The notes under the pieces: model-generated | Seen by the model: only the letters and a program-made list of their open reading frames with translations | Database searches by the model: none | Told to the model about the DNA's origin: nothing | Program-made: the position numbers and the translations under genes | DNA from: Parietichytrium sp. I65-24A | Lineage: Eukaryota; Sar; Bigyra; Thraustochytrida; Thraustochytriidae | Assembly: GCA_012862575.1 (NCBI GenBank) | Contig: BLSF01000058.1 | Span: 186,001-250,000, forward strand | DNA: 64,000 bases | Direction: 5' to 3' | In this document: positions 2,111 through 41,279 of the stretch, one piece after another | Layout of the letters: each line of letters starts with the position of its first letter | How positions within the stretch are numbered: position 1 is the stretch's first letter

Positions 2111-5100
2111 CTATACTGCGGTGACAGTCACGACCCTAGTTTGTTCCTTCTTGAAGGAGCTCAATGGGTCCTCCGGGCGAAAGAGCGAGCGAGTACTGCT
2201 GACGCTGTCGATGTCCTCCCTAGTCCACAAAGAGTTGCGGTACGAAAGGGTCATGAGGACGATGAAGACAATGCCCTGCAGGACCAGCGTGGAGAATGCG
2301 AAAGAGGACGTGAAGCTGCTTTCAAAGAGCTCAGCGTCGCTCTGATCCTGCACTACCTTTAGCAAAGCGCAGCAGCCCAGCAAGTACAAGAGAACCAGCG
2401 AGAGAATGGCATGAAAGTAGCAATACCTGTCCTGGAAAGGTTTGACGGTGAGAAATAGTGCGAGAAATACGCAGGCTACGATCAAATAAAAGGCGATGCC
2501 CAAAGCCGGAGACGAGTTGAAGATGAGAGCCGTCACGGCTGTCATGAGTAGTTTTCGAGTCAGCTCCAGCACTTCAAAGTACGCGAAACTGTATGACTTG
2601 CACAAAAATGCCATGCTCCGCAAAAGTTCGTTGTGGAGCGGGCTTCTGTCCTCAGCGGTCTTCCCCGCGGCGTTACGGTTGGCGTAGTGATAGGAAAGTG
2701 CCGCAAAGAGCCCGATCACTCCGACGGGGTAAAGCGCCACCATGACTGCAGCGTAGAGCCTCCAGGTGATACTAACGTCGGTGTCAAAATCGACGGTCGG
2801 GTCCTCGTAGAGTGTCCGAAACGTTGAGGCCTTCTGGTTTTCATCAAGCACAAAGACACGGGGCTCAAAAGACTTGAGGACCTTGGTTGAGATACCGGGG
2901 TAGGTTAGGTACAGAACAATCAAAGTTATCCAGAGGCCGGTGCCAGCGAGATGGGCAAGATTGCGAGTCGAAATCCGGAACGAGAAGCATGTGATGGTGA
3001 AGAAAATACACCCAGTGCAAAGAAGAGGCGAAAGGGTATAGGCCAACAGCATGTGATAAAAGTTGGTGTTGGCATAGCATGCTGTCGTGAAAGACTGAGC
3101 AAGGCTTGCCCAATCAAGATTTAGAATCGCTTCGGCCCTGCGGAAAGCCCCTGAGGAAAACACTCCACTGGAGGCGCAAATCGAGGCAGCCACCTGAAAG
3201 AATCCAAGAGATGTGCGAATCATAGTTTTCGAGGAGGCGTCCAAGTGAGACCACGCGCGGAGAGAGCGTCGGCAACCCCTGAAGAGCTTCCGAAGGGATC
3301 CAACTTTTGCGCCTTGTTCTGGGGTGGAGCACACCTTTGCGATGAGGTAAATGGAGGGCGAAAGAGTCAGCATCAGACTTATGAGCATCCATGCGTAAAA
3401 CGTTCCGGCATCCGACTGAATGCGGTCGTCGGTGCACTTTTCACAAGATTCCGTTCCCATTCCATAGCCTTCGATGCAGGATGCACAAAAAATGCCAGCA
3501 TGAAACTCCCGGCAGTGCTGCGTGTACTCCAGAGGACTCGCTGCGCCAGGAATATAAGTGCTGTTGTCCGAAATACAGAATGACGGATCAGGGCATTCAT
3601 AGATCTCCAAGGTCCTATTCGAGGCGCGCCAATAGCCTTCCTTGAGCTTTACTGTTTCTACAGTGGTTCCGATTTCGTCACAAGAGATGAGCCCGGCCAC
3701 TTGAGATTCGCTGCATGGGATTACAGTCCTAGACCCCGGCGATGAAAAGGTGGTCAACATGTTCTTCTCAGAGAGGCAAGCACTGGAAGAGGTGGATCCA
3801 GTGAACCGTGTTCGAGGGAACTGCTCTGGACATTTTTCGCAAGACGAACCAGAGGCAGGACCTCGATATGTATCAACGGGACATGGTTCGCACAATGCGC
3901 TTGCGCGAGCAGGTCTCTGATGCCCGATTGGACAAGTGTCAAGAGTCTTTGCGTTTGCAGGTTTCGTCCAAGGTCCGTAACCGGCTTCAGTCTGAGCACG
4001 TGCGATGAAAGAGTAGCTGGAACTCGCGTTCAACCCGTACACTGTGGCGGCAGTGGCCAGAGTTTCCTCGCAGCCCAAGGTTGAACCATTGCCACGCCAG
4101 CAGTACTCGTATGCGCTAAGCTGCCCGTTAAGTTGTGATGGTGCCACCCAAAAAAACGACAGACTCGTTTCGGATGTGTCCGCCGCACTCACGTTCAGAG
4201 CCATCGGGGAATCCTTAGGTACACCTTCTGCGGTGTAGATGAGTTGGGTGGAGCTGCGAGGCCCGCTGTAGACCTCGTTCATCCAGTCATAGGTTGCGGA
4301 GATGCGAACGGAGTAAGATGTGAATGACTCTAGGTCGCCAACCTGAACACTGTTATAGACCGTGCAAATGCGGTCCCATTTCTCGTTCTCCACTGCAACA
4401 GCGCTCTTCCACTCCACAGTGAAGATTGCGAGAACATTTTGTGGACCATCCACCTTTGTTCGAGGGATGCACGCGAGGGACGCGTTCTCTCTGCTTGTTG
4501 ACTCCCCGTTCTCACACAACTCACAAGAAAACGTCGGTGTTGAGACGAGCGGCAAGATCCGCTCGATCTGTGCATCGCTGTAATTTAAGCCGCCAAAGCC
4601 TGCCCACGCACCTTGGAATTCGTCGGTGGACCATTCGAGGAGCACAGAGTCCTCTGTTGTGCTAATGTTTGAAAACGAAGGAGATGTTGGAGGCTCTTTT
4701 GCTGAAAATTTGAGGTGCGACAGAGAGAGCCCATCGAATTCGTTTTCTGAGGAGCATTTGACTTCGTCGGCCAACAAGACCAAGTTTTGCCAATCCTCTC
4801 CGAGCCCTCCCACATGGTCGTAATCGCACACCAGCGGGTTCTGCGGAAGGCTTAGGCTTGAAAGCTTCAACTGATTAAAGTTGGTCGGAAATGCGGAGAT
4901 CTCTGTCTCGGAAATATCCAGCTCGCGAAGGTTCTGCAGATTCACTATATTCTCAGGTATGCGCCCTGTGAAGTTGTTGCTTTGGAGGTTCAGAGAAATC
5001 AAACGTGAGCAGGCCCAGAGATCCTCGACCCCTTCCCACGTTAATAAATTGTCTCGCAGATCTGCAAATTGCAATCTGCAAGTCCGGTTCCACATGCCGG

Positions 5101-5653
5101 GCAGTGGGATCCGGGATAGGCTATTGCCCTTGAGGTACAGGTCCTTCAAATTGACTAGCTCGCCAAAGCGGCTCGGGAGTGTCTTTAAAAACGGGGAGTC
5201 CGTGATCGCAAGGGCTGTTAAAGCGGTCAAGTTTCCCACTGATTCTGGAAGGCTGGCCAGCGCAGTGTGCGAAATGAGAAGGCGCTGGAGGTTGGTGAGC
5301 TCTCCAATCTCGTCGGGCAATTCTGAGAAACCGCAGTTTGCTAAATCAAACTCTTTCAATTTCCTCAGTTTCCGGATCGACGACGGAATTGGGCCCGTCA
5401 AGCCGGAAACCGAGATGGATTCTAATTCGGTGAGGTCCCCAATAGATTCTGGAAAAACCTTGGGCCCAGAACAGTCTATGTTTGTTGCCGAGCAAAGACT
5501 GTCCCAGCCGTCGATCTTCTTCACCACCTTCATTACCAAAAAGTCGGATTCCTCTTGATTCACGAGCTCGGTTTCCAGTGCCACCAGACGCGAAGGTGCG
5601 AGGCAGCTCGCCGCGCCGAGCAGGAGCGCCACGCGGGCTCTGGTTATCCACAT
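2111..5653 (-). CDS. LRR-FN3-cysteine-rich multi-pass membrane receptor
   Basis: The protein has 1,180 residues. The start is placed at the ATG at 5651-5653 because it opens a clear signal peptide (MWITRARVALLLGAASC). The open frame runs further upstream only from a GTG at 5752. In order it has about ten leucine-rich repeats (residues about 55-300, consensus L..L..L.L..N.L..LP), one or two fibronectin-III-like domains (about 320-580, ending YSFIARAQTEAGYGPW), a cysteine-rich GCC2/GCC3 ephrin-like region (about 585-740, CPIGHQRPA.., CEPCPVDTYRGP), then seven or eight hydrophobic helices (about 750-1141) and a short cytoplasmic tail. This layout is familiar from stramenopile cell-surface proteins of unknown ligand. 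The extracellular part predicts protein or glycan recognition. Signalling through the helical bundle is inference. Confidence 0.85.
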   Translation of the reverse strand: MWITRARVALLLGAASCLAPSRLVALETELVNQEESDFLVMKVVKKIDGWDSLCSATNIDCSGPKVFPESIGDLTELESISVSGLTGPIPSSIRKLRKLKEFDLANCGFSELPDEIGELTNLQRLLISHTALASLPESVGNLTALTALAITDSPFLKTLPSRFGELVNLKDLYLKGNSLSRIPLPGMWNRTCRLQFADLRDNLLTWEGVEDLWACSRLISLNLQSNNFTGRIPENIVNLQNLRELDISETEISAFPTNFNQLKLSSLSLPQNPLVCDYDHVGGLGEDWQNLVLLADEVKCSSENEFDGLSLSHLKFSAKEPPTSPSFSNISTTEDSVLLEWSTDEFQGAWAGFGGLNYSDAQIERILPLVSTPTFSCELCENGESTSRENASLACIPRTKVDGPQNVLAIFTVEWKSAVAVENEKWDRICTVYNSVQVGDLESFTSYSVRISATYDWMNEVYSGPRSSTQLIYTAEGVPKDSPMALNVSAADTSETSLSFFWVAPSQLNGQLSAYEYCWRGNGSTLGCEETLATAATVYGLNASSSYSFIARAQTEAGYGPWTKPANAKTLDTCPIGHQRPARASALCEPCPVDTYRGPASGSSCEKCPEQFPRTRFTGSTSSSACLSEKNMLTTFSSPGSRTVIPCSESQVAGLISCDEIGTTVETVKLKEGYWRASNRTLEIYECPDPSFCISDNSTYIPGAASPLEYTQHCREFHAGIFCASCIEGYGMGTESCEKCTDDRIQSDAGTFYAWMLISLMLTLSPSIYLIAKVCSTPEQGAKVGSLRKLFRGCRRSLRAWSHLDASSKTMIRTSLGFFQVAASICASSGVFSSGAFRRAEAILNLDWASLAQSFTTACYANTNFYHMLLAYTLSPLLCTGCIFFTITCFSFRISTRNLAHLAGTGLWITLIVLYLTYPGISTKVLKSFEPRVFVLDENQKASTFRTLYEDPTVDFDTDVSITWRLYAAVMVALYPVGVIGLFAALSYHYANRNAAGKTAEDRSPLHNELLRSMAFLCKSYSFAYFEVLELTRKLLMTAVTALIFNSSPALGIAFYLIVACVFLALFLTVKPFQDRYCYFHAILSLVLLYLLGCCALLKVVQDQSDAELFESSFTSSFAFSTLVLQGIVFIVLMTLSYRNSLWTREDIDSVSSTRSLFRPEDPLSSFKKEQTRVVTVTAV

Positions 5654-8600
5654 CTTGCCACGCGCAGCCGACTGTACAATCGATTGAGGGTTTTGGGGAG
5701 CTTTCCTTGCTTTTGTGGAAGGCTTGCCTCCGCTTGTTCGGTTTCGTACCACTCATTCGAGTTGCAAATCACGATCAGGTGGATGGATAGGCGGACGATT
5801 GATGAAGCCCACTTTTCACTTTCCCGGTAGCTACGCCTAGGCAGTTCGGTCCATCGCGAGGGGCAATCTCGTGGGATGCACCAGCCCATTTCCTACATGC
5901 ACCATTCCGACTAGCACATGCACGCCCACGTCTTTCACGTCTTTCGCGTTTCGACCCCGACTGGCTGGCTAATCGTGCTACTCTCAGAGTCCAATGTCTT
6001 GCAATGTATTGGGCCAATGCTTTGATGGGTTGGTCACAAAGATGAACGAACGTCCATGCACTGCACATTTCCGATCGAGTGTGGGAAACCGCCTGTGAAA
6101 CTCATCGACACTAAGTACGAATACCGGCGCCGGCCCTGGCGTTAGTCTCGAGTATCTATCTTTCGTGGCCGAGATTGCACCTCCTCTTTCTCTCCCACAT
6201 TCTCCATCCACACTCCCCATACCCTCCACTATCGCATCAGACTCGATGGACTCACAGATAGCAACCCCGTCAGAGGAATGCAGAGATTCAGACTTCGCAA
6301 ACTCGCCACCTTTGGAATTCGATAATTCGATAATTCGATAGCATGATGATTCGATACGCGCCATCACGCCTTCAAACCTTCCTATTTCTTGATCCCAATC
6401 ATTCCCAATCAATCAAAAAGACACTCCAACTCTTCTTTGCCATGATTTGCCCGTTGACAAACAGGTCGCGTCACGAAGGGGCTCTTGTAACTTGTTAAGA
6501 ATGCACTATATCATCGTGCTTATTATAGGCATGCAATAACTGCGAGTAGGTCTCTGCGAGTCGCAAAATGAGCGACTACGTGTGATGTAAGGATATTTAA
6601 GGAGTGGTATAGTGGAAGTGCCTTACTATAAGTTGAACGTTTCATAGCGTTTCAGTAGAAGCTGGTGAGTACGTACGCACTATTCGAAGGCATAGCCTAA
6701 CAGCCTGAACATTACTTGTCCCGTCCGCTAGGGTTCCGCTCATCAGAACCGGTCCATAACTTACCGTAAAATGGGTTCTTCTGAGCAAATCAACGTGGAG
6801 CAGATTTCAACATGCGCATGAGTCGCTGGTGCGTGTCACGCATAGGGAGACCTTCTTATCAACTATTCAATGGCCACTCCGTTTCAGTTCAGAAGAAATC
6901 TGGAGCGACGACTACCTGTGCTAATAATTATGTGCATTTTCTTCAACCTTCGGTGCAAACCCGCAGTTTAGTCGCGGATTCGTTCCAGACAAGAAGTCCC
7001 ATAATTTACCCTAGCAAAAGTGATAAAGAACAGGGAAGCACTTTGTCATGAGGAGGCACAGAGATGTAGAGTTTCACCTAAGCAAAGTAGTGAAGGGAAA
7101 AAGGGGTCATTTTCCGATCAGATTAATGTCAATTTTTTTTCTCCTGGTGCTACGGTGAGAGGTAAGTAGCGTTATCCAGAGTACAAACGCTGGTTAGTGG
7201 GGAGAAGTGCAAAGTGAGACGGCCACTTATCTAGCTAAACGTGTAGTAGTGTAAGTCTCCAAGTTCTTTCTTCGTCGAGCCTTCGTTCAACCTCCCTTCA
7301 CAACATCATCCCCTGAGGCTATGGGATCTTAATTTAAACACTAGCGGCTCGGATGCCGAGACTTTGCTCTCGGAGATTCCGTGGGGCGAGTTAATACTTG
7401 TGGCTATCTCGTTAATGCCGGTACTAAGTACTTATAGCGAGGACTAAGTGTTAGTTAGACTCAATTGGAACGCATTCATTCTAAGAGGCTTCCTCACACC
7501 GGAAAATGTCGCCCATTTCCCTCCTCACAACCCCTTGCTACTATAATATTAGTAAACAGTACCAGTCCTGCCATTTTCGGGGAATTTGAACATCCTCCCA
7601 GCGTCTCCTGTTACCTTGATTCCCTATCTCCTCTTAGGACCCCGCCTCGTAGTACCTTGTTCCACGTGCACTTTCCCGTCTCGCTCCTACCGCCTCTGGT
7701 AACCACAGCTACCCGTCTTCCCCGCACCTCCGCCCAGTGGATACCTTAGCGAACAACTCGTCGTTCTCCGTCAGCTAGCGTGGGGCTATCGGGTGAAGTA
7801 AGACCATGCCCGCAAGGCGGGAGGAAGAAGGATAGTTTCGCCGGAAGAGAGGAGCAGCGGAAAGAGAAGGGGCGGGTAAACCTTCTTCGTTCGCGAGAGG
7901 AGAGTTGGGAGAATTGGAAGGCAAGAACTTGTGAACATAGAAGAAAGAAAACGAGCGTGCTTGCAGGGCTTCCGACACATCCGATATCATCCGATGCTTT
8001 CAGATATTCCATTCAAAATCAGTACGCAAATCAAACTAAACTTTCGATCAATCAAAATTCAATACAATCATTCAACCAAACAGAATCAAACACATCGGAA
8101 TTCGGAGCATCTGCAGTGGATGGATGAACGAAGCCTGGGCCAACCCAGTCAGGTTCCGAGCACAGCGACACCAAAGACTTCAACAAAGAAAGACACCAAA
8201 AAAGAAACCAGTCTCCCAACGCTTGAGAACGCTCGAGACCTTGCTTCTCGGTCCACCGGAACTCAGAGTTTAGTTAATTTCTTGGTTTGTTGGTTTCTTC
8301 AAACTTCATTTCGCCACTGGGCCTAGACTCGCTCCGATCCTTTGCAAACCAACGCCATTCAACAACTTTAACATCATCATCAACAATCAACAATCAACAA
8401 CGCCTCGTCAAAAATAGACAGTCGTTCACTGTCAGTCAACCCACTCACTCACTCTCTCTCTCTCTCTCTAGCTCACGCACCTGCACTCTTACCGCTCGCG
8501 CTAACCGCCGCACTAATCGTGGCACTTCTCTCTCTCTCTCTCTCTCTCTTATTTTCTTTTTCTTTTTCTTTTTCTTTCTCCCTTTCTCTCAGTTGTGTTT

Positions 8601-16030: not shown

Positions 16031-17623
16031 CAAATCGACTCTGCTACTCGGTACCAGAAAAGCGTCCTGTGAAACCTGTGAAACCTGTGAATCCTGTGAA
16101 TCCTGTAAATCCTGTAACCGAAAACGAAGAAGAGAACAGCCAGTCTGTCTTCTGTCTCCTGTCTCTCTGTGTCTGCTCCCTTGCGTTGTGTTGTGCCGTG
16201 TTGGGTTTGTTGTGTTGCATAGGCATACGCTACTGACAATCCTCAGAATCCTCAGAGACACGAGCCTATGAGCCTATGATCCTATGAGCATCTATGAGCC
16301 TTCGGGCATGCGAGCCTACAGCCTGGGAGCCTTAATCGAAACAGTACGAAGCGAGTCGCCGACTTGGGATCTTTCGCTTTCGCACTACGGTGACATAGCT
16401 GTTGCACGGGCAAAGATCCATGGAATTTATTCCGAGTTACTAACAGTTGTGTCAAATCCTTCCATTCCGCATCATTCCGCACTTCTTTCTGTACGTTCTC
16501 TGACTGACTGACTACCTCTGCCGCTTCCTCTTGGCAATTCAATTGACCCGTGCAAGTTACTCCGAGTTTGGCTTCTGGCTTCTGGCTTCTGGCTGAGGGT
16601 GGAGGCAATCAATGAATCAATCAATGAATCAATCAGATTGATTGACTGTGAATCGATCGATGCAATCGATCAATCATTTATTCTTTCACATTTCCATACA
16701 TTTCCATACACTTCCAAAGACGTCGTCTCCTACACCAGTTCCGGGAATCGAACACGCAATCATGTGTTACCGGAGTTACCGGTGCCGGTAACAAAACACT
16801 GCCAGATAGTGTCAGTGTAAATCAAATCAAGTCAAATCACAACAATTCAATTCACAGTCAATTCAGACTTTGAACTTTAAAATTTCGAAGAAACAAATCT
16901 CAAATCAAGTCCACGAAACTTGTGAGCGAATCGCACCACACTCCTGCAACACGCAAACACGCACATGGCACCATGGCTCCCTTAAAATCAATCAATACAA
17001 CTGTAAATTAGAACTACGAATCAATCAAACGAAACGGCAAGCATCAAGAACCCGCCGCCACCGAACCCCCAGCCCCCACTACTCCCCGTTACCATCTCCC
17101 TAAATAAACTCTACCATTTCGGCGTAAGAACCAGCAAAGAACCGGCGAAGAACCCAGAAAGGTGCTCGGAAAGTGGAGTGAGCCAACGCTCACTCATTGC
17201 AAGCATTGTGTGCATACAGCATTCACAGAATTGACAGAATTGACAGCTGTTGCAAGCATTGACAGCGCTGTGAGCCAACGCAACAAGATCCCAAGAGCCC
17301 AATCCGCGACTAGTCAGCAGGCACGCAGGCACTAAGGTAAGGCACGCCGAGAGAGTTGCGACCGGAATTCAGATTCAGAAGTTTGACCGCGGCGATCTTG
17401 CGGAGAACGCTCGGTTATCCGCGAGCAGAGCTGCAAAGGCTACGGATTGGCTGGCGAATTTGTGCGCATTCTTGTGTTTTGGGGCTTTGCGAGCTTTGCG
17501 AGCTTGGGTGCTGGCACACCGGAGAGGGAGGTTCCGCGTGTTGCTGAGGATTGGTGTGTATTTCATTTCAGGTTGTGCGGTTTTTTGGACGGGAAGTAGG
17601 TTTGTTGGGATTGGACGCAGAAT
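16031..17623. other. divergent promoter interval, aminotransferase / helicase
   Basis: This is the 1.6 kb between two divergent start codons. 16066-16118 holds a CCTGTGAAA/CCTGTGAAT tandem array just upstream of the aminotransferase ATG. 16571-16593 repeats GCTTCTG. 16605-16677 is CAAT/GATT-rich. 16775-16792 is a perfect 8-bp inverted repeat (GTTACCGG, 2-base loop). A tRNA-like TTCGATT loop on the minus strand near 16748 lacks pairing stems and was rejected. No gene was seen. Confidence 0.5.
16066..16118. repeat. tandem CCTGTGAAA-type repeat in aminotransferase 5' leader
   Basis: About six imperfect 9-mer units (CCTGTGAAA, CCTGTGAAT, CCTGTAAAT) stand 36 bp upstream of the chosen ATG. On the minus strand the array is read as an open frame (DSQDSQVSQV). 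The frame has no upstream ATG, so leader sequence is the simpler reading. Confidence 0.8.
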
Positions 17624-20600
17624 ATGACGGAGGAATTTGGGGTGGAGGCTGTGAGTGGGAATGCCGAAGATGACGCGTGGGCGCAGCCTTTTGCGGAAGA
17701 GCTTCGGCAGAATCTTAGCGGCGATGGTAGGAAATCCAACTTCATGCAAGCCTACTGTGTTGGGACGGCGTCTGCTTCGGACAAGATGGATTTGTGCGCC
17801 CTGAATGAATGCGCGGATGCGGACTTGCCGAGGCGAGTGCTGTGCGCTTTGCTAGAGCAGGGGGAGTTTCGCGAGAGGTTACAGATCAATGGACCTGCCG
17901 GGAAAGTGCTCCAGCAACTCTTGCAGCGAAGCTTGCATGAGCAGCGGGAACTCGGAGTGGACTCGTTACGAATTGGGTTTCCGCTGATCGAGTGTGGGGG
18001 CGATGGGAAGAGCGGTGCTGAAAGTAGTTTAAGTCCTTTGGTGCTCTGGAAAGTCAGACTGGAAGCTGGTACGGGCGGCAAGCTGGTTCTCAGTCGCGAG
18101 TGCGACGATCAAGTTGACTTGAACGATATCTTGCGGGAATTTTTGCTAGAAAAACGTGACAGGGACATAACAGCGATACCCAGTGGAAACTCATCGAGCA
18201 ATGGAAATCAGGCATTTCAAAGTGGTGGAAATGGAGGCGCAGGGCAGTACAATTACTCGCCCTTCTCAGTAAATAATTCATATGTTCAGCAACGAGGGTG
18301 GTTCAATGAAGTGGATATCGAGCGTCTAGCTTCAGCTGCAGTCGGAAATGCTACTGCTTCTCAGACCCAAGCCGCGCTAGAGAAAGTCATTCGCAAGAAA
18401 GGTCCCGAGGCAGTTCCGACAAGTCCATCATCGTTCGCTTCATACGACCCAACGGCAAGCGGGAAGAAATCGAAAACCAAGAAGGAGGGGAGGGATCGCA
18501 TTGTGTGGGGCGCAGTTTTGGGCCTGTTTAAGAGTGCCAATGCCTCAGCGTTGAAAGACCTCGAGGCATACATCCGCAAAGGCAACCTCTCCGTGCCCAC
18601 GGAGTCCCTTCTGAGTGAGAGAGATATTGTATACTCAGGCTTGCCGCTGGACCCGAGCCAGTTTGAGGCCATCCAGGCGCTCTCCGAGAAAAAAAATCTT
18701 GTAATTGTGGGTCCGCCAGGCACCGGCAAGTCTCAGACTTTGGCAGGCGTATTGTCTTGCGCTGGCGCAAATGGTCTAAAGACTCTGGTGGTTTGCGAGA
18801 AAACCACCGCATTGGAAATCTTGCAGCGAAAACTCGTAGAGATGCAGTGGAGAAGGTGGACGGGAGAGCGGTTCTGTGCCTTGATCACAAATGTGCAGAG
18901 CCGCGAAGGGGTGATCGCTAAGGCGCTGCAGAATCGCTCCGAGTTGGAACAAACGACCCTTGCGGAGTGCGACGAGGCGCGGCAGAATATTGTGGGCGAA
19001 ATATTTCGTCTGCGCTCCGAGGTAGAGGAGGAGGAATCGAAATTCGCGCGCCAACAAGGCGTCATAAACCAGATTGTGTCCTTCAACATGACTGCTCAAG
19101 ACGCGATTTCTTTTGTTGTCAAGAAAAAGCTCGAAGGTTATTCTGTTCTAAAGATTCCTTCCAATCTCGACCTGCCCAAGAAAATATTTGCCGCAGATCA
19201 CCTGATGATGCTCGACCGTTGCCAGGAAAACATCGGCAAGGATACCATCGAAGCACTCAAGATGGTCAAGCTGAGTCAAATGGGGCAAACTTTCAATCCT
19301 GAAAAGCTGCTTGACGCTGCCACCCAACTCTGCGCCACCATGGAGGGAGAAGTGCAGAAGAGATTCGAGATTGTCAAAGCTGCTAAACAAGCTGTCGAGG
19401 CTGACTTGGAAACTCGTTGTGAAAAGTGGACAAACCACTTCATGGACCTTTCAGCAATGGCGTCTCAAATTTCCAAATTCGACGCGGCAACCGTACAAGC
19501 CTTTGACGCTCCGAGCTGGCTGGATTCGATTCTCGGTCCGTTTTGGGGAAATAAAAGTCTGCGGTACTTTCACAGCGCCCTTCGGAAGGCGAAGGAAAGT
19601 ATTGCCGATCTTAGCAAAGATATGAGCGGCACAGTGTTGCCCACAAACTTTACCCTTTCAAACTTGGACAGAATCGTGGAATGGTGTAAGAAGAAGAAGG
19701 ACGTTGTCATTGCTGAATGTGAGCAAGTGAAAGCCGAGAAAGCCGGGATGTTTTGGTTCGCAAATCAAGAGCAGATCCCCGAGAAATTTAAGGCACAGTA
19801 CAAAGCAGCATCGGACGCAATGGAAGCGATCGCCAAGGCTAGCATCTTCAGCTCGGATCAGTCAATGAAGCTAATACGAGCTGCATTGAATGAGCCGGAG
19901 ATTGACGGGAAAACCACTTTTTATCAGATCAAGAAACTCTTGCTTCCTTTCGCGCGAGAGTCACTCTCTTCATGGCGCAAGGCAGGAGACTCTCTGGAGT
20001 GTCTCTTTGACTTTGGTCTTGGCCAAGACGATGCTGTATTTCACGAGCTCTTGAACAGCAGCTCCGTGCTACGGTGGGGCGAGCGCATTAAGCTTTGTAT
20101 TCTAACCAATGAACTGGAGGCAAAGTGTAAGGGCCTGCTGGCCTCTGATTTCGTTCTCGACAAGCTCAGCGACATGCTGAGCCAGATACAGGCGAACATT
20201 CGCAAGCTTTACTGCATTCAGTGCATCATTAAGATGCACAAAGCAATTAAGGTTTACGAAAACCGTGCCGGCCAAAAGTTTGAACAGCTTTACAATCGCC
20301 CATCCAAAAAGATGAGGAAGAACTCCCTGCGGGAGGTTGTCAAGGAGCTTGATCTGTTCACGGCTTGCTTTCCGGTCGTTTTCTGTACTCCTGAAGTTGC
20401 GAGCATTCTTTTCAAGGCGCGGCACAAATATTTCGACCTTGTGATCGTGGACGAGGCCTCCCAAGCACTGACTCATGACACTTACACGGCTATTTTAAAA
20501 GGCCGCAAAGTGGTCATCGCGGGGGACAACAAACAAATGCCGCCCACGACGCTTTTTGGGGCGGGAGGAAACGCTGATAGAGCGAGTTTACTCGACTTGG

Positions 20601-22699
20601 ACTACGATCTGGGATTCGAGAGTCCTATGGATCCTTCCACAGTGTCCGAGGCTGTCGGATTTTCGAATCGCAATACGAAGGCGTTGAGCCACTTGAGTAA
20701 AAACGCTGCCAATGCCGAGTCCTTGCTGGATTTTGCCACCGACCACTCCTTTGCATTCAAAACCGTGGAGCTCATGTTTCACTACAGATCTTTGGACCCC
20801 GTTCTTATGAACTTCCACTGCTCGGCAATCTACCCAAACTTGTCTTTGTGCCCGAAAGGAGCAGGACCGCCAAGCGCAGATCCGGCAATTGAATTGATCC
20901 AGGCTAACGGTGTCTATCGCGACCAGGCCAACAAAAAAGAAGCCTCTGTGATTTTGGAGCTGCTCGAACGCATAGCTGACAAGTGTTTGAGTCAGGGACT
21001 CTCTATCGCTGTCGCGACCTTCAACGACGTCCAGAAGAAGCTGATTGTCAAGCTCTTAAAGTCGCACCACTCGCTGTTACACCTCTTGAAGCCAAGCAGC
21101 AATTTCTTTGTAAAGAACTTGGAGAACTTGCAGGGCGACGAAGTCGATGTCCTCATTATTGGCACGACGTTTGGACCAAGCGCGAGCGGAACGTTTGCTC
21201 AAAGATTCGGCCGAATCAATTTTCAAGGGCTGGGATACCGTTACCTGAATGTTTTATTCTCGCGAGCGAAGCAAAAGCTGTATCTAGTGACCTCAATTCC
21301 TGAAAAAGAGTACCTCAGCGCAGAGAAAATCATGGATGAAACTGGTGTGTTGAGTGGGGCATCAATGCTGTACGGCTTCCTTGCATACGCGCATGCCGTC
21401 ACCAGCAATGAGCCCGCACGCGTTAGCGCAATCCTCAAGGAGTTCAGATTTGCTTCTGATATTCCAAAGTTTGGGAATGCTGCGCCGATGAGTCGTCTAG
21501 AAAATGTCATCTACCAGCACCTGAAACAGAGGAAGACGCCTCTCTCCGAGGACATCACGCTGTTACCTGGTGAAAGCTCACAAGACATCTTGAGAGGCAT
21601 TGTCGTTCGATTGCATGACCATCGTAGTCTAGTCATTGAGTGCAACGCGCATGAAAGCTCTAGATCATGCCTTCACCGACGTGATGTGTTGAGCAAGTTC
21701 AACTATGATTACTACCATATTTGGCCCGTAAATTGGCTCTTTGATGACCCTCGTAGGGAGTTTGAAAAGCTTCGGGACATCATTAAAGAGCGGCGTTTGC
21801 GTAGTCGATCGGCCGCTGTTGATTCTCGCCGTCCGTCCTTCCAATTTTCGGATCAAATTCCAGACACCCCGGAAAGTCTTGAAGACCGCAAGCGCAAGTC
21901 ATCCAGTCTCTTAGACGCCTTGGATTCAACCAACTCTCAGGAAGAAGGAGTGGACGAAGCGGATTTGGCAAGGGCCAAGTCAAGCAAGCGCGCCAAGATT
22001 GGCGCTTCTGGGCTTGGTGCTGCAAGTGACGATGAACTTGAAGAAGCGGATTCATCAATGTCGAAGGGTAGACGAAGTACCAAATCTACATCATCGACGC
22101 CTCCGCGTCAAAGGATAACGGAAATCGACACTGGTCTCGCAGCAAGCACTTCCAGCGCGGAGAACACCCCGCGTTCGCAAATTGGGGAAATAGAATTTGG
22201 AAAGCCGTACCTTGTCAGATATGGTACCAGACGCAAGTATATTGTATTTTGTCCACTGAGCCATGTTCGTGGGAAGAAGAACATTCTCAAAGGCACCTGT
22301 GGCTCCAAGACAATTAGAGTGAGTTCGGACAGATGCCTTCCTCTTCGTGGCGATGTGCCGATAGAGCAATTTCTGGACAAAGTGGAGTACCAAAAAGCAC
22401 AGCACTTCATGACAGGGCTGGTAAAGAACGAGTTATCTCCCGAAAAGGCTTCAGAGGATATGAAAGACTTGAAAGATGTCAACACGGTGGAAGAACCGCC
22501 TTTGCAACCAACTACACAGAGAGGATCTAAAAAGCGGAAAGAGTCGCAAGTTGCTTCGTACCCGTCTAATCGCCGAAAGGAGAAAACAAAGCAACCACGG
22601 ACTGTATCTGCCAGCTTTTACGATTCGGAAGAAGATGAAAGCTCCGAGTTCAACCAATCTGAGGCCAGTTATGATGAAGACTGGAATTTTAACGATTGA
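17624..22699 (+). CDS. giant SF1 helicase with prokaryote-type DUF4011 and Vsr/MTES_1575-like nuclease fold
   Basis: The protein has 1,691 residues from the ATG at 17624. The N-terminus (about 105-180) ends LSPLVLWKVRLE...DLNDILREFLL, like the DUF4011 domain that precedes helicases in bacteria. Walker A is GPPGTGKSQTLAGVL (about 363), followed by VVCEKTTALEILQRKL. Helical insertions run to about 880. Walker B is LVIVDEASQAL (about 939), then AGDNKQMPPT, FHYRSLDPVL, VATFNDVQKKLI, NLENLQGDEVDVLIIG (about 1165) and LNVLFSRAKQKLYLV (about 1210). Residues 1286-1386 match the plan of Vsr/MTES_1575 endonuclease-like tails (SRLENVIYQHL, SLVIECN, YYHIWPVNWLFDDP). The usual catalytic Asp and the ECD Asp appear replaced, so the nuclease may be inactive. 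A disordered basic linker and an unrecognised globular segment (about 1522-1592) finish the protein. DNA or RNA unwinding is predicted. The cellular role is unknown. Transfer from bacteria is inference. Confidence 0.85.
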   Translation: MTEEFGVEAVSGNAEDDAWAQPFAEELRQNLSGDGRKSNFMQAYCVGTASASDKMDLCALNECADADLPRRVLCALLEQGEFRERLQINGPAGKVLQQLLQRSLHEQRELGVDSLRIGFPLIECGGDGKSGAESSLSPLVLWKVRLEAGTGGKLVLSRECDDQVDLNDILREFLLEKRDRDITAIPSGNSSSNGNQAFQSGGNGGAGQYNYSPFSVNNSYVQQRGWFNEVDIERLASAAVGNATASQTQAALEKVIRKKGPEAVPTSPSSFASYDPTASGKKSKTKKEGRDRIVWGAVLGLFKSANASALKDLEAYIRKGNLSVPTESLLSERDIVYSGLPLDPSQFEAIQALSEKKNLVIVGPPGTGKSQTLAGVLSCAGANGLKTLVVCEKTTALEILQRKLVEMQWRRWTGERFCALITNVQSREGVIAKALQNRSELEQTTLAECDEARQNIVGEIFRLRSEVEEEESKFARQQGVINQIVSFNMTAQDAISFVVKKKLEGYSVLKIPSNLDLPKKIFAADHLMMLDRCQENIGKDTIEALKMVKLSQMGQTFNPEKLLDAATQLCATMEGEVQKRFEIVKAAKQAVEADLETRCEKWTNHFMDLSAMASQISKFDAATVQAFDAPSWLDSILGPFWGNKSLRYFHSALRKAKESIADLSKDMSGTVLPTNFTLSNLDRIVEWCKKKKDVVIAECEQVKAEKAGMFWFANQEQIPEKFKAQYKAASDAMEAIAKASIFSSDQSMKLIRAALNEPEIDGKTTFYQIKKLLLPFARESLSSWRKAGDSLECLFDFGLGQDDAVFHELLNSSSVLRWGERIKLCILTNELEAKCKGLLASDFVLDKLSDMLSQIQANIRKLYCIQCIIKMHKAIKVYENRAGQKFEQLYNRPSKKMRKNSLREVVKELDLFTACFPVVFCTPEVASILFKARHKYFDLVIVDEASQALTHDTYTAILKGRKVVIAGDNKQMPPTTLFGAGGNADRASLLDLDYDLGFESPMDPSTVSEAVGFSNRNTKALSHLSKNAANAESLLDFATDHSFAFKTVELMFHYRSLDPVLMNFHCSAIYPNLSLCPKGAGPPSADPAIELIQANGVYRDQANKKEASVILELLERIADKCLSQGLSIAVATFNDVQKKLIVKLLKSHHSLLHLLKPSSNFFVKNLENLQGDEVDVLIIGTTFGPSASGTFAQRFGRINFQGLGYRYLNVLFSRAKQKLYLVTSIPEKEYLSAEKIMDETGVLSGASMLYGFLAYAHAVTSNEPARVSAILKEFRFASDIPKFGNAAPMSRLENVIYQHLKQRKTPLSEDITLLPGESSQDILRGIVVRLHDHRSLVIECNAHESSRSCLHRRDVLSKFNYDYYHIWPVNWLFDDPRREFEKLRDIIKERRLRSRSAAVDSRRPSFQFSDQIPDTPESLEDRKRKSSSLLDALDSTNSQEEGVDEADLARAKSSKRAKIGASGLGAASDDELEEADSSMSKGRRSTKSTSSTPPRQRITEIDTGLAASTSSAENTPRSQIGEIEFGKPYLVRYGTRRKYIVFCPLSHVRGKKNILKGTCGSKTIRVSSDRCLPLRGDVPIEQFLDKVEYQKAQHFMTGLVKNELSPEKASEDMKDLKDVNTVEEPPLQPTTQRGSKKRKESQVASYPSNRRKEKTKQPRTVSASFYDSEEDESSEFNQSEASYDEDWNFND

Positions 22700-37115: not shown

Positions 37116-39149
37116 TTATACAGACGCAGAGTGCTCGAAATACTGCGATCGTTCACTGGACTTGTTAAATTCGTACTCCAACCAAGCGCGATCCTCCGGG
37201 TGGAAATGCAGCACCTCCAAGAGAATTTGGTCCTGGAGATCCCGCTTCTGCAACTTGTCATCCGGCTTGCTGTCCTCAAACATAAAGAGATTGTCGCAAA
37301 CAGGCTCATCGTCCGGCTGGTGCAAGGAAGCCAAGTAAGGATGCTTGAGAGCGTCCTCCACGGTGATGCGCTTCTCAGGGTCAAACTGGAGCATATCATC
37401 AAGAAGACTCAGACACTCCTTGGAGGCTTTGGGGAACAATATGGCCAAGCGCTTTTTGCACTTCAAGGGCTGATTTCGCATGAACCTTTTCGCCTTGTCA
37501 CTTGTGATAAAGTTCATGTCAGACTCGGACGGTGTACCTAAAACGTCCGTAATCAGCTGCAGCTGGTGGATATAATCTTCACCGGGGAACAGCGGCTTGC
37601 GGGCGAGCAGCTCTGCGAAAATACAGCCAAGCGCCCACACATCGATCGCCTTGGTGTATTCGCGGCACGCAAGCATGATCTCCGGGGCTCGGTACCACCG
37701 AGTGACAACGTACTCGGTGAGCTCTAGCTTCGAGTCCTCCAGCCCGCGGGCCAGGCCAAAGTCGCAAACTTTTAAGTCACAGTTGGCGTTCAGCAAGAGG
37801 TTGGATGGCTTGAGATCGCGATGAATCACATTTGCGGAGTGAATGTACTTGAGCGCGCGGAGGGTTTGGTATACAAAGTACTGGATATGGTCCTCTGTCA
37901 GTTGCTGTTTCGAATAGATCACACGGTGCAGGTCAGTCTCCATCAGCTCAGACACAATGTAAATGTCTTCAAAGTCGTTGTACCCTCGAGGCGCGAGGAG
38001 GTCCTTGATGTGGATTATGTTTTCATGATCAAAGTGGCGAAGCAATTTAATCTCTCGCAGAATCCGCTTCGCATCCACGAGGTCTTCAAAGGCGCGAGTC
38101 ACCTTCTTGATGGCCACCTGCTCCCCTGAGGTGCGATCGTTTGCGCTGATTACCACCCCGTAAGCACCGGTGCCCACTGGACGGATCATGGCGTACCGCG
38201 TGTCCACCTCGAAAGTCGTCGTAGGGGTCTGGAACTTGTGGGTAGGTCTGCGTTCAAATACAGGGCGAGCGCTGCCAACTTTTCCGCTGCCTTCGCAGCT
38301 ACTCGCTCCATCGTCCTTTGACTTGCAGTCTGGACTGGTTCGCGGAGCGTCCGATGCCCAAGAGTCCTTGGCCATAGATGCAAAGCTTGTGTCTCCGGCA
38401 GACGAGCTTGCCGGATGGGAGACTTGACTACTTTGCGACACAGGTTGTGGCGGCGCTGCGGCTGTGCTGTAGATATTCTTGGTAGATGTCTGTGACTGTT
38501 GTTCCTGCTGCTCATCAGTTTGATCTTTGTCCTTCTCTACCTCCATGTTGACGTCATCCCCGTCGTCGATGGAGAAAGAGGTCAAACTCCGCGACACATC
38601 TGAACTCTTGATGCTGTTTGATCCCGTCAAACTACTGCTGCTCCGCCTCCGATGTTTTAAGCGCTTGAAAATACCGCCTCCACGGCTCGTCCCACTTGCA
38701 GAGGTGTTAGACTTGCTCTCCTCTTCGTGGAATGACCTGCCGTCCTCCTCGTTCAACTTTTGCTGGAATCTCGCGTCTGCCTCCGCTTTGGCGTCCGTCA
38801 GGCTCTTCGTCCCACTGGAGCCTTTCTCCGTCTTCGCCAGCTGAATAGACTTGTTCAGGGTATCGAGCCACCGGCTCTGCAGCTCCGCTGACTCTGCGCA
38901 GATGATGAGCACGAGCCTATTCGTCGACAGCTCCATGCTGTTCGGCTTGTAGTGCGACACTTTGACAAACGCATCGCCCGTGATCATTATCTCCCCCCGC
39001 GGTTTCGCGTCCCCCGCGGCTCGAAAGTAACGGAGCACCGTCCCATCCAGCACGAAATACCTACGTTTCCAGCCCCGTCCGGCCTTCACCGTGCGCTTCA
39101 CCAGGTACCCTTCTAACCGCACTTTCCTCTCCATGTCGCCAATCATCAT
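37116..39149 (-). CDS. MAP kinase with N-terminal PH domain
   Basis: The protein has 677 residues from the first ATG at 39147-39149 (MMIGDMERKV). The frame continues upstream only from a TTG. Residues about 8-107 form a pleckstrin-homology domain (VRLEGYLVKR, WKRRYFVLDG, terminal Trp in LQSRWLDTL). A Ser/Gln-rich linker (about 110-300) follows. The kinase domain spans about 313-600, with GTGAYGVV, VAIKK, HRDLKPSN, DFGLA, the TEY activation motif (ELTEYVVTRWYRAPE, about 477-479) and the MAPK CDVWALGCI equivalent (AIDVWALGCIF). An acidic common-docking segment follows (HQPDDEPVCDN). All catalytic residues are present. The TEY motif makes it ERK-like. The PH domain suggests direct recruitment to phosphoinositide membranes. 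Confidence 0.95.
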   Translation of the reverse strand: MMIGDMERKVRLEGYLVKRTVKAGRGWKRRYFVLDGTVLRYFRAAGDAKPRGEIMITGDAFVKVSHYKPNSMELSTNRLVLIICAESAELQSRWLDTLNKSIQLAKTEKGSSGTKSLTDAKAEADARFQQKLNEEDGRSFHEEESKSNTSASGTSRGGGIFKRLKHRRRSSSSLTGSNSIKSSDVSRSLTSFSIDDGDDVNMEVEKDKDQTDEQQEQQSQTSTKNIYSTAAAPPQPVSQSSQVSHPASSSAGDTSFASMAKDSWASDAPRTSPDCKSKDDGASSCEGSGKVGSARPVFERRPTHKFQTPTTTFEVDTRYAMIRPVGTGAYGVVISANDRTSGEQVAIKKVTRAFEDLVDAKRILREIKLLRHFDHENIIHIKDLLAPRGYNDFEDIYIVSELMETDLHRVIYSKQQLTEDHIQYFVYQTLRALKYIHSANVIHRDLKPSNLLLNANCDLKVCDFGLARGLEDSKLELTEYVVTRWYRAPEIMLACREYTKAIDVWALGCIFAELLARKPLFPGEDYIHQLQLITDVLGTPSESDMNFITSDKAKRFMRNQPLKCKKRLAILFPKASKECLSLLDDMLQFDPEKRITVEDALKHPYLASLHQPDDEPVCDNLFMFEDSKPDDKLQKRDLQDQILLEVLHFHPEDRAWLEYEFNKSSERSQYFEHSASV

Positions 39150-41279
39150 CCTCGCTCGGCTTCTCCCGCCCCAGCTCCCTCCGGGCCGCGCGCCCGAAAC
39201 AACTTGGCAAGTGCGAGCGAGGCGTGCGAAGCTTGCGAAAATCAAGCAAAGAGAAAAGAGGACAACACAACGCCGCGCGACACACGGAACGAACGGCGAG
39301 CCAAGAACAGTCAAGTAGTCGAGTAGTCAAGGTCCCTTGGCGCTCTACAACCTGTGCGAGGCTCAAAGCAAAGTATCCGCCACTCCGCGCGCGCCTGTCT
39401 TCTGCTGCTCCCTCAATCTGACACTTGTGCGACTCCAACGAGTCTCCATTCGAAAGCCACTGTGACTTCCGAGACGGAAGAGAGAGAGATAGACAGAGAG
39501 ACAGAGAGACAGAGAGAGAGAGAGAGAGTGCTAGCAAGCACACAGCACATCGACGGCGCGGTGCGGTTAGATCCGAACGTAGACGGGCGTAGACCGGAGA
39601 GTGCGTTCGCTGTAGACAACTGGTACCAGAACGAACAAGTCGCTCTCCGACGAGGCTCCTAAATTAGCGATGTCGTAAGAGCCAACTCTCTGCGCTCTCT
39701 GCGCTCTGCACTGAAGACTGAATGAACACTCAGGACTGACTGGCAGAAAGACCACATTCCAGAGAAATGGATGTCTTCGCCACTTTTCTTTTTCTTTCTC
39801 TTTCACTTTCGCTTTCTCACCTCCCGCCGTGCGCGCTCTCCCCACGGGACGGCCGGACATGAGCATTCCATCCTGTCCCATCCTATCCGCTGCCTCACTA
39901 CTGCTACACTGCTACATTTCGCGTTCAAAGCTTCATCGCCAAAGGTCAATTATTAAATAATCAAACAAACAACAAACAAACAAACAAGCAAACAAACGTT
40001 GAATGAAGGTGGCATCGGAGCGGGACGCGTTAGTGTAAGACAAACGAAAGTCAAGTTGTCCGTCCATCAAAGTCACAATTCACTGTCAAATTCTATTTTT
40101 ATAATTCTCTCCGCCTTTTCCTCTCTCTCCTCTCTCTTTCTCTTTCTTCGATGAGCACTGAATTTGATTGATTGATTGACTGATTGTTGACTTGATTGAT
40201 TAGAATTTAGATAGATTCTGTGCTCAGCTGCGCGACTTTTCCGCGTTTCCAAACTAATTAGATGATGTTCACATCCAATGTGGGACGGAGTTACTTTTCA
40301 CTCCCGCCCGACTACCTTTACCCATAGCCGTCGACAATAACACAGGGATGATAAGGGATTCGCTACTAGGTTGGCTAGGATTAGGTTAAAGTGCGATGTA
40401 CTGTCTCCTGTCCATAATGGTGTTACAAGGGCTGTTATGTAGCTCTAGTTATCGCTATTTATAGTTCCATTTTGCTTGTATTCATGTAACAGCTGATTGC
40501 TAGTGTTATTTTTAAATAGTCGGTATGTAGGCAAGTAGCAGTGGTTGGGAGAGAAAAGGGTTCAATTATTGGTCGTCCGAATTGAAGATGGCCATCACGG
40601 CCAGTGAAGCTTTGCAACACAAGAGAAGAAGAGAAGCAAGCTACGAAAGCAAGCAGCCATGGAAGGATGGCAGGCTGGACTTGAAAAGCGCGCGCGTCTT
40701 TCATAGCTTCCGGGCCGAGTCATGGATGTGAGCGAATGTTGTGCAACGTATGCGCCGGGCGACTATTAGGCGCGGTAGTAGCTCGGTGCTACGCCTCCGA
40801 ACGGATTTATTTCCTGGGCCATCGCGAGATGAAGGTGCAACGAAACTTGGGAGACGCATTTCGACCCTTCCAAGTTAAAGAATCACAGCGCGATTGATCG
40901 ATCGATGGGCAGCTAGCCTTTGGAAAGCTTCTGTGCAGTGGTAGCTACGAAGCTGGGCCGGGGCCGTAGCACGATTCAATGTCTGTGTTGTTACGAAGCT
41001 ACCACTGTGTATAGTGAGCGCTTTCTTACCTGACTCTGCGTGCATGAGGTCTCATGGGTGGAGGCAAAGCTCCGTGCTTGTCTAAACAAGAAGATCAATC
41101 AAGACAGAACTAGGAGGCTAGTCGTGTTTGTAGAGAGCCCGCAAACAGCGGCGACTTCCGCCACAAGGTGAAGTGGTTGCGGGCTAGCTTTGGTCACGGC
41201 TGCAGGTCGATACGACGGTATCGACGAGGCTTGCAGCAAGAGCGCACAGGCGCCGTGACAGACTGCGCTGCTCGAAAAG
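39150..41279. other. 2.1-kb intergenic interval
   Basis: Repeats include a GA microsatellite at 39478-39529 upstream of the kinase and CAAA units at 39962-39998. GATT words occur around 40165-40205. About 40240-40480 is a TAG-rich patch like those noted elsewhere. The frame 40459-40704 (minus) has no recognisable content. No RNA gene was recognised. Confidence 0.4.

Follow-up and report, generated by a model that had tools for sequence, protein, structure and literature searches.

A eukaryotic gene of prokaryotic DUF4011-SF1-Vsr type with an altered nuclease site in Parietichytrium sp. I65-24A

How a eukaryotic genome has come to encode what reads as a bacterial helicase-nuclease, and whether such a protein would still cut, are the questions raised by a gene at positions 17624..22699 of a 64,000-nucleotide stretch of DNA (the window; positions 186,001 to 250,000 of contig BLSF01000058.1, assembly GCA_012862575.1) from the thraustochytrid Parietichytrium sp. 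I65-24A. A preliminary description of the sequence had proposed that the gene is a complete, possibly transferred, copy of a prokaryote-type protein in which an N-terminal DUF4011 domain, a superfamily 1 (SF1) helicase and a Vsr/MTES_1575-type nuclease follow one another, with eukaryotic regions added. The open reading frame (ORF), which lies on the + strand as do all features given below unless marked otherwise, runs from an ATG through 1,691 codons to a stop, with no stop codon inside. Its stop-to-stop frame measures 1,699 codons, with an in-frame stop 8 codons 5' of the first ATG, whereas the longest open frame in a simulation of 50 windows (order-1 Markov) reached 303 codons. When the host assembly (42.5 Mb in 172 contigs) was searched with the protein, the gene came up in single copy, the sole other match at E <= 0.01 being a 43-residue patch within another helicase, and on the same contig it is flanked on both sides by eukaryote-type genes. 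This confirmed the ORF as a real gene with a bacterial-type helicase, and the analyses below support a prokaryote-type DUF4011-SF1-Vsr domain order with added regions.

Intact helicase residues and altered nuclease residues

The helicase core was matched by the Pfam models AAA_11 (1.2e-18) and AAA_12 (3.2e-9), with related P-loop models also significant, and among NCBIfam models ProA (4.4e-81) and Hhe (1.3e-54) came ahead of the IGHMBP2 family (1.6e-22); the top PADLOC model was PDC-S37 (2.4e-81). These leading models, ProA, Hhe and PDC-S37, describe anti-phage proteins of bacteria. All three NCBIfam scores fall far beneath their curated cut-offs, at 273.1 bits against 1500 for ProA (NF058533), 185.2 against 2000 for Hhe (NF042953) and 79.8 against 348.9 for IGHMBP2. 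BLAST bit sums to the window protein were 285-377 for ten sequences of a Bacteroidota subfamily and 216-228 for three other prokaryotic sequences, whereas the nine Upf1-type SF1 helicases encoded elsewhere in the same genome did not exceed 57.8 bits, from a single segment. The proposal that the motifs stand closer to bacterial SF1 helicases than to Upf1 or senataxin was thus borne out by profiles, BLAST scores and the topology tests given below; the six motif strings cited for it all occur in the translation, and the best matches were not to the Upf1, senataxin or ZNFX1 type.

All motifs of an SF1 core are present, namely motif I or Walker A (GPPGTGKSQT, residues 363-372, 18710..18739), motif II (VDEASQ, residues 942-947, 20447..20464), motif III (GDNKQMPPT, residues 967-975, 20522..20548), motif IV (HYRS, residues 1053-1056, 20780..20791), motif V (KNLENLQGDE, residues 1164-1173, 21113..21142) and motif VI (LNVLFSRAK, residues 1208-1216, 21245..21271). 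Nine of nine invariant residues (K369, S370, D943, E944, Q971, R1055, Q1170, G1171 and R1214) are shared by the window protein and 30/30 bacterial sequences, and on these residues the motor looks intact. Between motif Ia and motif II the alignments place a long insert of low conservation (approximately residues 441-900, 18944..20323), and ahead of motif I stands a segment, 'IVWGAVLGLFKS' (residues 293-304, 18500..18535), that resembles the Bacteroidota subfamily in the alignments, although when profiled by itself the segment scores weakly (11.1 bits versus 5.5 for shuffles).

The Vsr/MTES_1575-like domain (residues 1291-1389, 21494..21790) has an altered active site. The nuclease pattern D...E.D is kept in 23 of the 30 bacterial sequences, and in 9 of the 12 that belong to the subfamily; the aligned residues of the window protein read L...E.N, and the D...E.D of an active MTES_1575 restriction endonuclease is not present. 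The asparagine stands where 29 of the 30 have aspartate, the histidine of 18 of the 30 is replaced by glutamate, and behind these two sites the alignment shows a shortened stretch. Both tryptophans of IW..NW are retained, as are the glutamate of helix 1 and that of the ECD motif. Judged by these positions the attached nuclease domain looks decayed and, since its key residues are not conserved, the proposal of a complete copy is not supported as far as function goes. The pattern is also broken in seven bacterial sequences (L144, L019, L023, L028, L055, L067 and L049); thus nuclease decay has occurred in bacteria as well, and recurs in this helicase family.

The curated Pfam models miss both end domains. 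DUF4011 gave no match on the protein at E <= 10 and none genome-wide at E <= 1, and MTES_1575 none genome-wide at E <= 0.1, so that these models overlook the window gene in genome scans too; on the protein itself MTES_1575 reached E 0.16, with 12.5 bits where the cut-off is 38.2. Profiles of our own were built from the bacterial sequences only, with 600 shuffled sequences and the own-genome Upf1-type helicases as controls. The DUF4011 profiles scored 29.6 bits (12 subfamily sequences) and 30.6 bits (18 other sequences) on the N-terminal 340 residues and 25.8 and 27.4 bits on the whole protein, compared with 4.1 bits for the best shuffled sequence and less than 0 for the Upf1-type helicases. 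They delimit a DUF4011-like domain at residues 26-187 (17699..18184), where the 29.6 bits extend across residues 26-177 and a longer profile gives 29.3 bits across 26-187; the predicted model of residues 20-330 has a mean predicted local distance difference test score (pLDDT) of 77. The nuclease profiles scored 19.5, 16.7 and 22.3 bits (the last from all 30 sequences) on the C-terminal part and 17.0, 14.1 and 19.7 bits on the whole protein, the 19.7 bits across residues 1291-1389, compared with 5.5 bits for the best shuffled sequence and at most 2.0 for the Upf1-type helicases; their E-values were 0.0053 to 0.28 when calculated for a database of a nominal million sequences. This test is slightly favourable, because the window protein was part of the alignment on which the region limits were set. 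The Vsr-like domain was also placed by its position in the collinear bacterial alignment, and an alpha/beta segment occupies it in the predicted model. The end domains are therefore recognisable with bacteria-only profiles and weaker than first stated; of the Pfam search then proposed, AAA_11 and AAA_12 came out significant, DUF4011 gave nothing and MTES_1575 stayed below its cut-off.

Phylogenetic placement and prokaryotic relatives

Trees were built from prokaryotic sequences and own-genome Upf1-type helicases, with one sequence from a viral contig (L098) in the largest. In that FastTree phylogeny of 80 sequences the window protein joined five Bacteroidota sequences with support of 99, and in a 53-sequence tree it did so with 96, the nine own Upf1-type helicases forming a separate side at 100. 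A more careful tree of 34 sequences united it with Bacteroidota at 100/99, and one of 38 sequences with closer relatives united it with 13 Bacteroidota sequences at 100/100, the 13 alone being held together at 100/99. The 80-, 34- and 38-sequence trees were midpoint-rooted, which leaves the direction unfixed; a 39-sequence tree rooted on five own Upf1-type helicases again placed the window protein with 11 Bacteroidota sequences at 100/99, with a long-branch warning. Placement inside the own-genome Upf1-type groups was tried under three constraints and rejected each time by the approximately unbiased (AU) test (p 1.8e-5, 3.8e-6 and 8.4e-5, hence p <= 8.4e-5). Membership in the DUF4011-SF1-Vsr family is solid, and we hold the exact attachment point with moderate confidence.

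With tblastn, 381 plasmid records matched at E <= 1e-3, headed by a Flammeovirga protein (3e-54), and one record came from a phage collection. The Flammeovirga protein is collinear with the window protein and is recognised by both Pfam models (DUF4011 3.8e-11, MTES_1575 1.2e-18). A scan of bacterial and archaeal genomes used patterns drawn from the window and Flammeovirga proteins, and among the best 80 of 559 relatives the three lowest E-values belonged to Bacteroidota. Within that phylum 24 of 395 genomes matched at E <= 1e-20, nine of these at <=4.6e-53 with 35-38% identity and the others at 7.8e-29 or weaker; further members of the same clade scored in between, from 1e-41 to 3.5e-45, and of 128 genomes from a single order 3 matched at E <= 1e-40. 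With so few matching genomes in each set, the subfamily is patchy.

Bacterial relatives had been described as often linked to defence, and this stood in part. Neighbourhoods were listed for 12 bacterial loci, and at two of them, L140 and L143, the neighbours were scanned with PADLOC. The Bacteroidota relative L140:1454-11516 lies downstream of type I restriction-modification genes (methyltransferase and specificity), with two further scanned neighbours giving no match, and L143 adjoins a kinase that matches many defence-kinase models. L145:6256-12791 and L146:8708-15243 share one gene order, between a common neighbour, which from the start of its protein we take to be radA, and another conserved gene. 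If that assignment is right, the setting of these two loci looks more like housekeeping than defence. Linkage is thus mixed, and a defence role for the Bacteroidota subfamily is suggested rather than general.

Origin and possible role of the protein

We consider it reasonably probable that the window gene is a eukaryotic member of the prokaryotic DUF4011-SF1-Vsr family, most likely an old acquisition from a bacterium of the Bacteroidota subfamily or a nearby lineage, and that its product is a domesticated motor with a dead nuclease, perhaps nuclear. Because the best tree sets it beside the Bacteroidota subfamily and a basal position is unrejected, bacterial origin by transfer is likely and the donor uncertain. 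Several observations weigh against this view of its origin. With the window protein basal to, as sister of, all sampled prokaryotic sequences the AU test gave p 0.131, so that of the helicase phylogeny first proposed the separation from Upf1-type proteins held and the position relative to prokaryotes was left less firm. Its branch is very long (1.6-2.0), with warnings from the tree program about long branches and uneven composition, and among 41 diagnostic columns (60% conservation) 15 are of the subfamily type, 12 of the other type and 14 of neither (5, 2 and 5 at 70% conservation; 2, 0 and 3 at 80%). Prokaryotic sampling was deep for Bacteroidota only, with the scan patterns noted above, and an old eukaryotic family is possible, eukaryotic collections lying outside the comparison. 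The nuclease decay may also predate the transfer, given the seven altered bacterial sequences, and the residue that replaces the first catalytic aspartate depends on the alignment, with D1321 two residues before the aligned column and the strand in the predicted model beginning at residue 1325.

The unrejected basal position, the 12 columns of other type, the long branch and a host-like codon usage would all suit an old eukaryotic or pre-eukaryotic DUF4011-SF1 branch kept by descent in some eukaryotes. We regard such descent as rather unlikely, since the 100/99 placement beside the Bacteroidota subfamily was obtained with the root on own Upf1-type helicases and in midpoint-rooted trees too, and the top scores are all from Bacteroidota, though only that phylum was deeply sampled. 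Improbable, likewise, is a nuclease that still cuts through shifted residues (e.g. E1293, D1321 and E1339) as an active restriction-like anti-element factor: the two retained glutamates, the nearby D1321 and both tryptophans would fit it, and against it stand the asparagine at a nearly invariant aspartate, the lost histidine, the shortened stretch behind and a Pfam score far beneath the cut-off. Large DNA viruses of eukaryotes carry bacterial genes, and from this general knowledge, rather than anything direct in the window gene, a viral route could be envisaged. It seems very unlikely to us, as viral contigs, scanned three times, yielded 0, 3 and 15 relatives (with three contigs recurring), whose 18 loci from 15 contigs had BLAST sums of at most 218 bits and a best single score of 161 bits, versus 213-285 for ten Bacteroidota subfamily sequences; the hosts of these contigs were not examined. 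A derived Upf1, senataxin or SMUBP2-type helicase that converged on bacterial motifs could account for the Upf1-like fold of the second half and for SMUBP2 as the best match among solved structures (4.1e-16), but the rejections under three constraints (for the model used), the profile and BLAST differences and the DUF4011- and Vsr-like ends make it highly improbable. The slightest chance of all is given to bacterial contamination of the assembly; the ORF is uninterrupted, as contamination would have it, yet it has eukaryotic-type neighbours on both sides of the same contig, a codon usage like theirs and C-terminal regions that the bacterial sequences lack.

Those regions follow the nuclease-like domain. 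The five aligned Bacteroidota sequences stop near residue 1395, where a low-confidence, probably disordered linker begins (residues 1395-1515, 21806..22168; pLDDT mostly below 50) that contains a basic cluster, RKRK (21887-21898). Beyond it lie a small beta-barrel-like domain of five predicted strands (residues 1529-1573, 22208..22342; pLDDT ~66-73), with no second copy in the genome at E <= 1 and no match in the tails of five bacterial sequences, a second basic cluster, KKRK (residues 1636-1639, 22529..22540), which is a possible nuclear localisation signal, and an acidic C-terminal tail (residues 1652-1691, 22577..22696) with 12 D/E in its last 40 residues.

With an intact motor joined to a cutting domain that lacks key residues, the protein may have taken on a new function, possibly in the nucleus. 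By its SF1B core the motor would hydrolyse ATP and move along single-stranded nucleic acid in the manner of Upf1 and SMUBP2, while the altered nuclease site suggests that cutting has been lost and that the DUF4011-like and decayed Vsr domains may now recognise or gate the substrate. The two basic clusters and the acidic tail point to nuclear action, and the clusters together with the added beta-barrel may retain the protein inside the nucleus, on chromatin or RNA. It would probably serve to remodel or survey nucleic acid, perhaps of foreign origin, its own nuclease doing no cutting, and a non-cutting factor of this kind is the best fit to the anatomy of the protein, from which alone we argue. 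More tentatively, and doubtful as it stands, a eukaryote might have captured a bacterial anti-phage-type helicase-nuclease whose cutting site was then lost and to which nuclear-type regions and a new beta-barrel were added, and which would now sense or remodel foreign or aberrant nucleic acid in the nucleus without cutting; the defence family would thereby have a new branch in eukaryotes.

Genome setting and known systems

Nine window ORFs were scanned with Pfam and proved mostly eukaryote-type; they include a PH-protein kinase fusion as well as FHA-RING, ankyrin-WW, armadillo and TPR proteins. The kinase fusion (37116-39314, - strand) appears MAPK-like by eye, and a large protein at 2111-5752 (- strand) combines a fibronectin III domain, leucine-rich repeats and an ephrin-receptor-like cysteine region. 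The window gene has a GC content at third codon positions of 0.56 and a codon usage within the range of 11 neighbour ORFs (correlation 0.79; neighbours 0.53-0.86), and its overall GC of 0.502 is the lowest of these 12. About 50 bases 5' of the start codon lies a tract (ttcatttcag, 17562-17572) that looks like a 3' splice site and is perhaps the end of an intron in the 5' untranslated region. Chlorophyll a/b-binding and FabA domains had no match in the host genome.

Bacteroidota DUF4011-SF1-MTES_1575 proteins (e.g. Flammeovirga kamogawensis WP_144077066.1) share with the window protein the domain order, the long insert after motif Ia and the helicase motifs; they differ in that most of the subfamily keep the D-E-D residues, and in that basic linker, beta-barrel and acidic tail are absent from all five aligned, some others having a different C-terminal stretch. 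With Hhe, which carries DUF4011 by its NCBIfam name, ProA and PDC-S37 it has the SF1 helicase in common at significant scores, but large parts of the Hhe and ProA proteins are left unmatched. According to PMC3710099, MTES_1575 giant proteins fuse a Vsr-type restriction endonuclease to an SF1 helicase, HEPN, transglutaminase and winged helix-turn-helix domains and are proposed to work without modification enzymes; the window protein shares the SF1 helicase-Vsr fusion, but it has no Pfam match to HEPN, transglutaminase or DUF3320 at E <= 10, and its nuclease residues are altered. CnuH of type III-B CoCoNuT systems likewise has a Upf1-like helicase that carries a long insertion and is fused to a Vsr-like domain; CnuH acts with McrBC-type genes, and DUF4011 goes unmentioned for it in the portion of the source available (PMC11090510). 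No McrB/McrC-type family occurred among the nine scanned window ORFs, the remaining genome not having been searched for them. Upf1, SMUBP2 and senataxin share the RecA fold and SF1B motifs, whereas the own-genome Upf1-type helicases fall on a separate side of the trees and our profiles detected no DUF4011- or Vsr-like domain in them.

In the literature, a DUF4011 gene served as the flank of a defence hotspot (PMC10250203), Hhe was merely named among systems left out of a figure (PMC11291487) and shared defence domains have been reviewed (PMC10952713). Among the matches listed from open-licence literature on DUF4011, prokaryotic immunity genes in eukaryotes and such helicases, no report of a eukaryotic DUF4011 protein was found. 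Some eukaryotic immune proteins are generally known to stem from bacterial defence genes (see the available text of PMC10732462 and PMC11291487). Overall, the interpretation of the preliminary description is partly supported. With a DUF4011-SF1 helicase encoded by a eukaryote, the bacterial-derived eukaryotic immune proteins would gain another family, and a protein whose motor is intact while its nuclease has decayed would allow us to ask if it was the motor that was kept.
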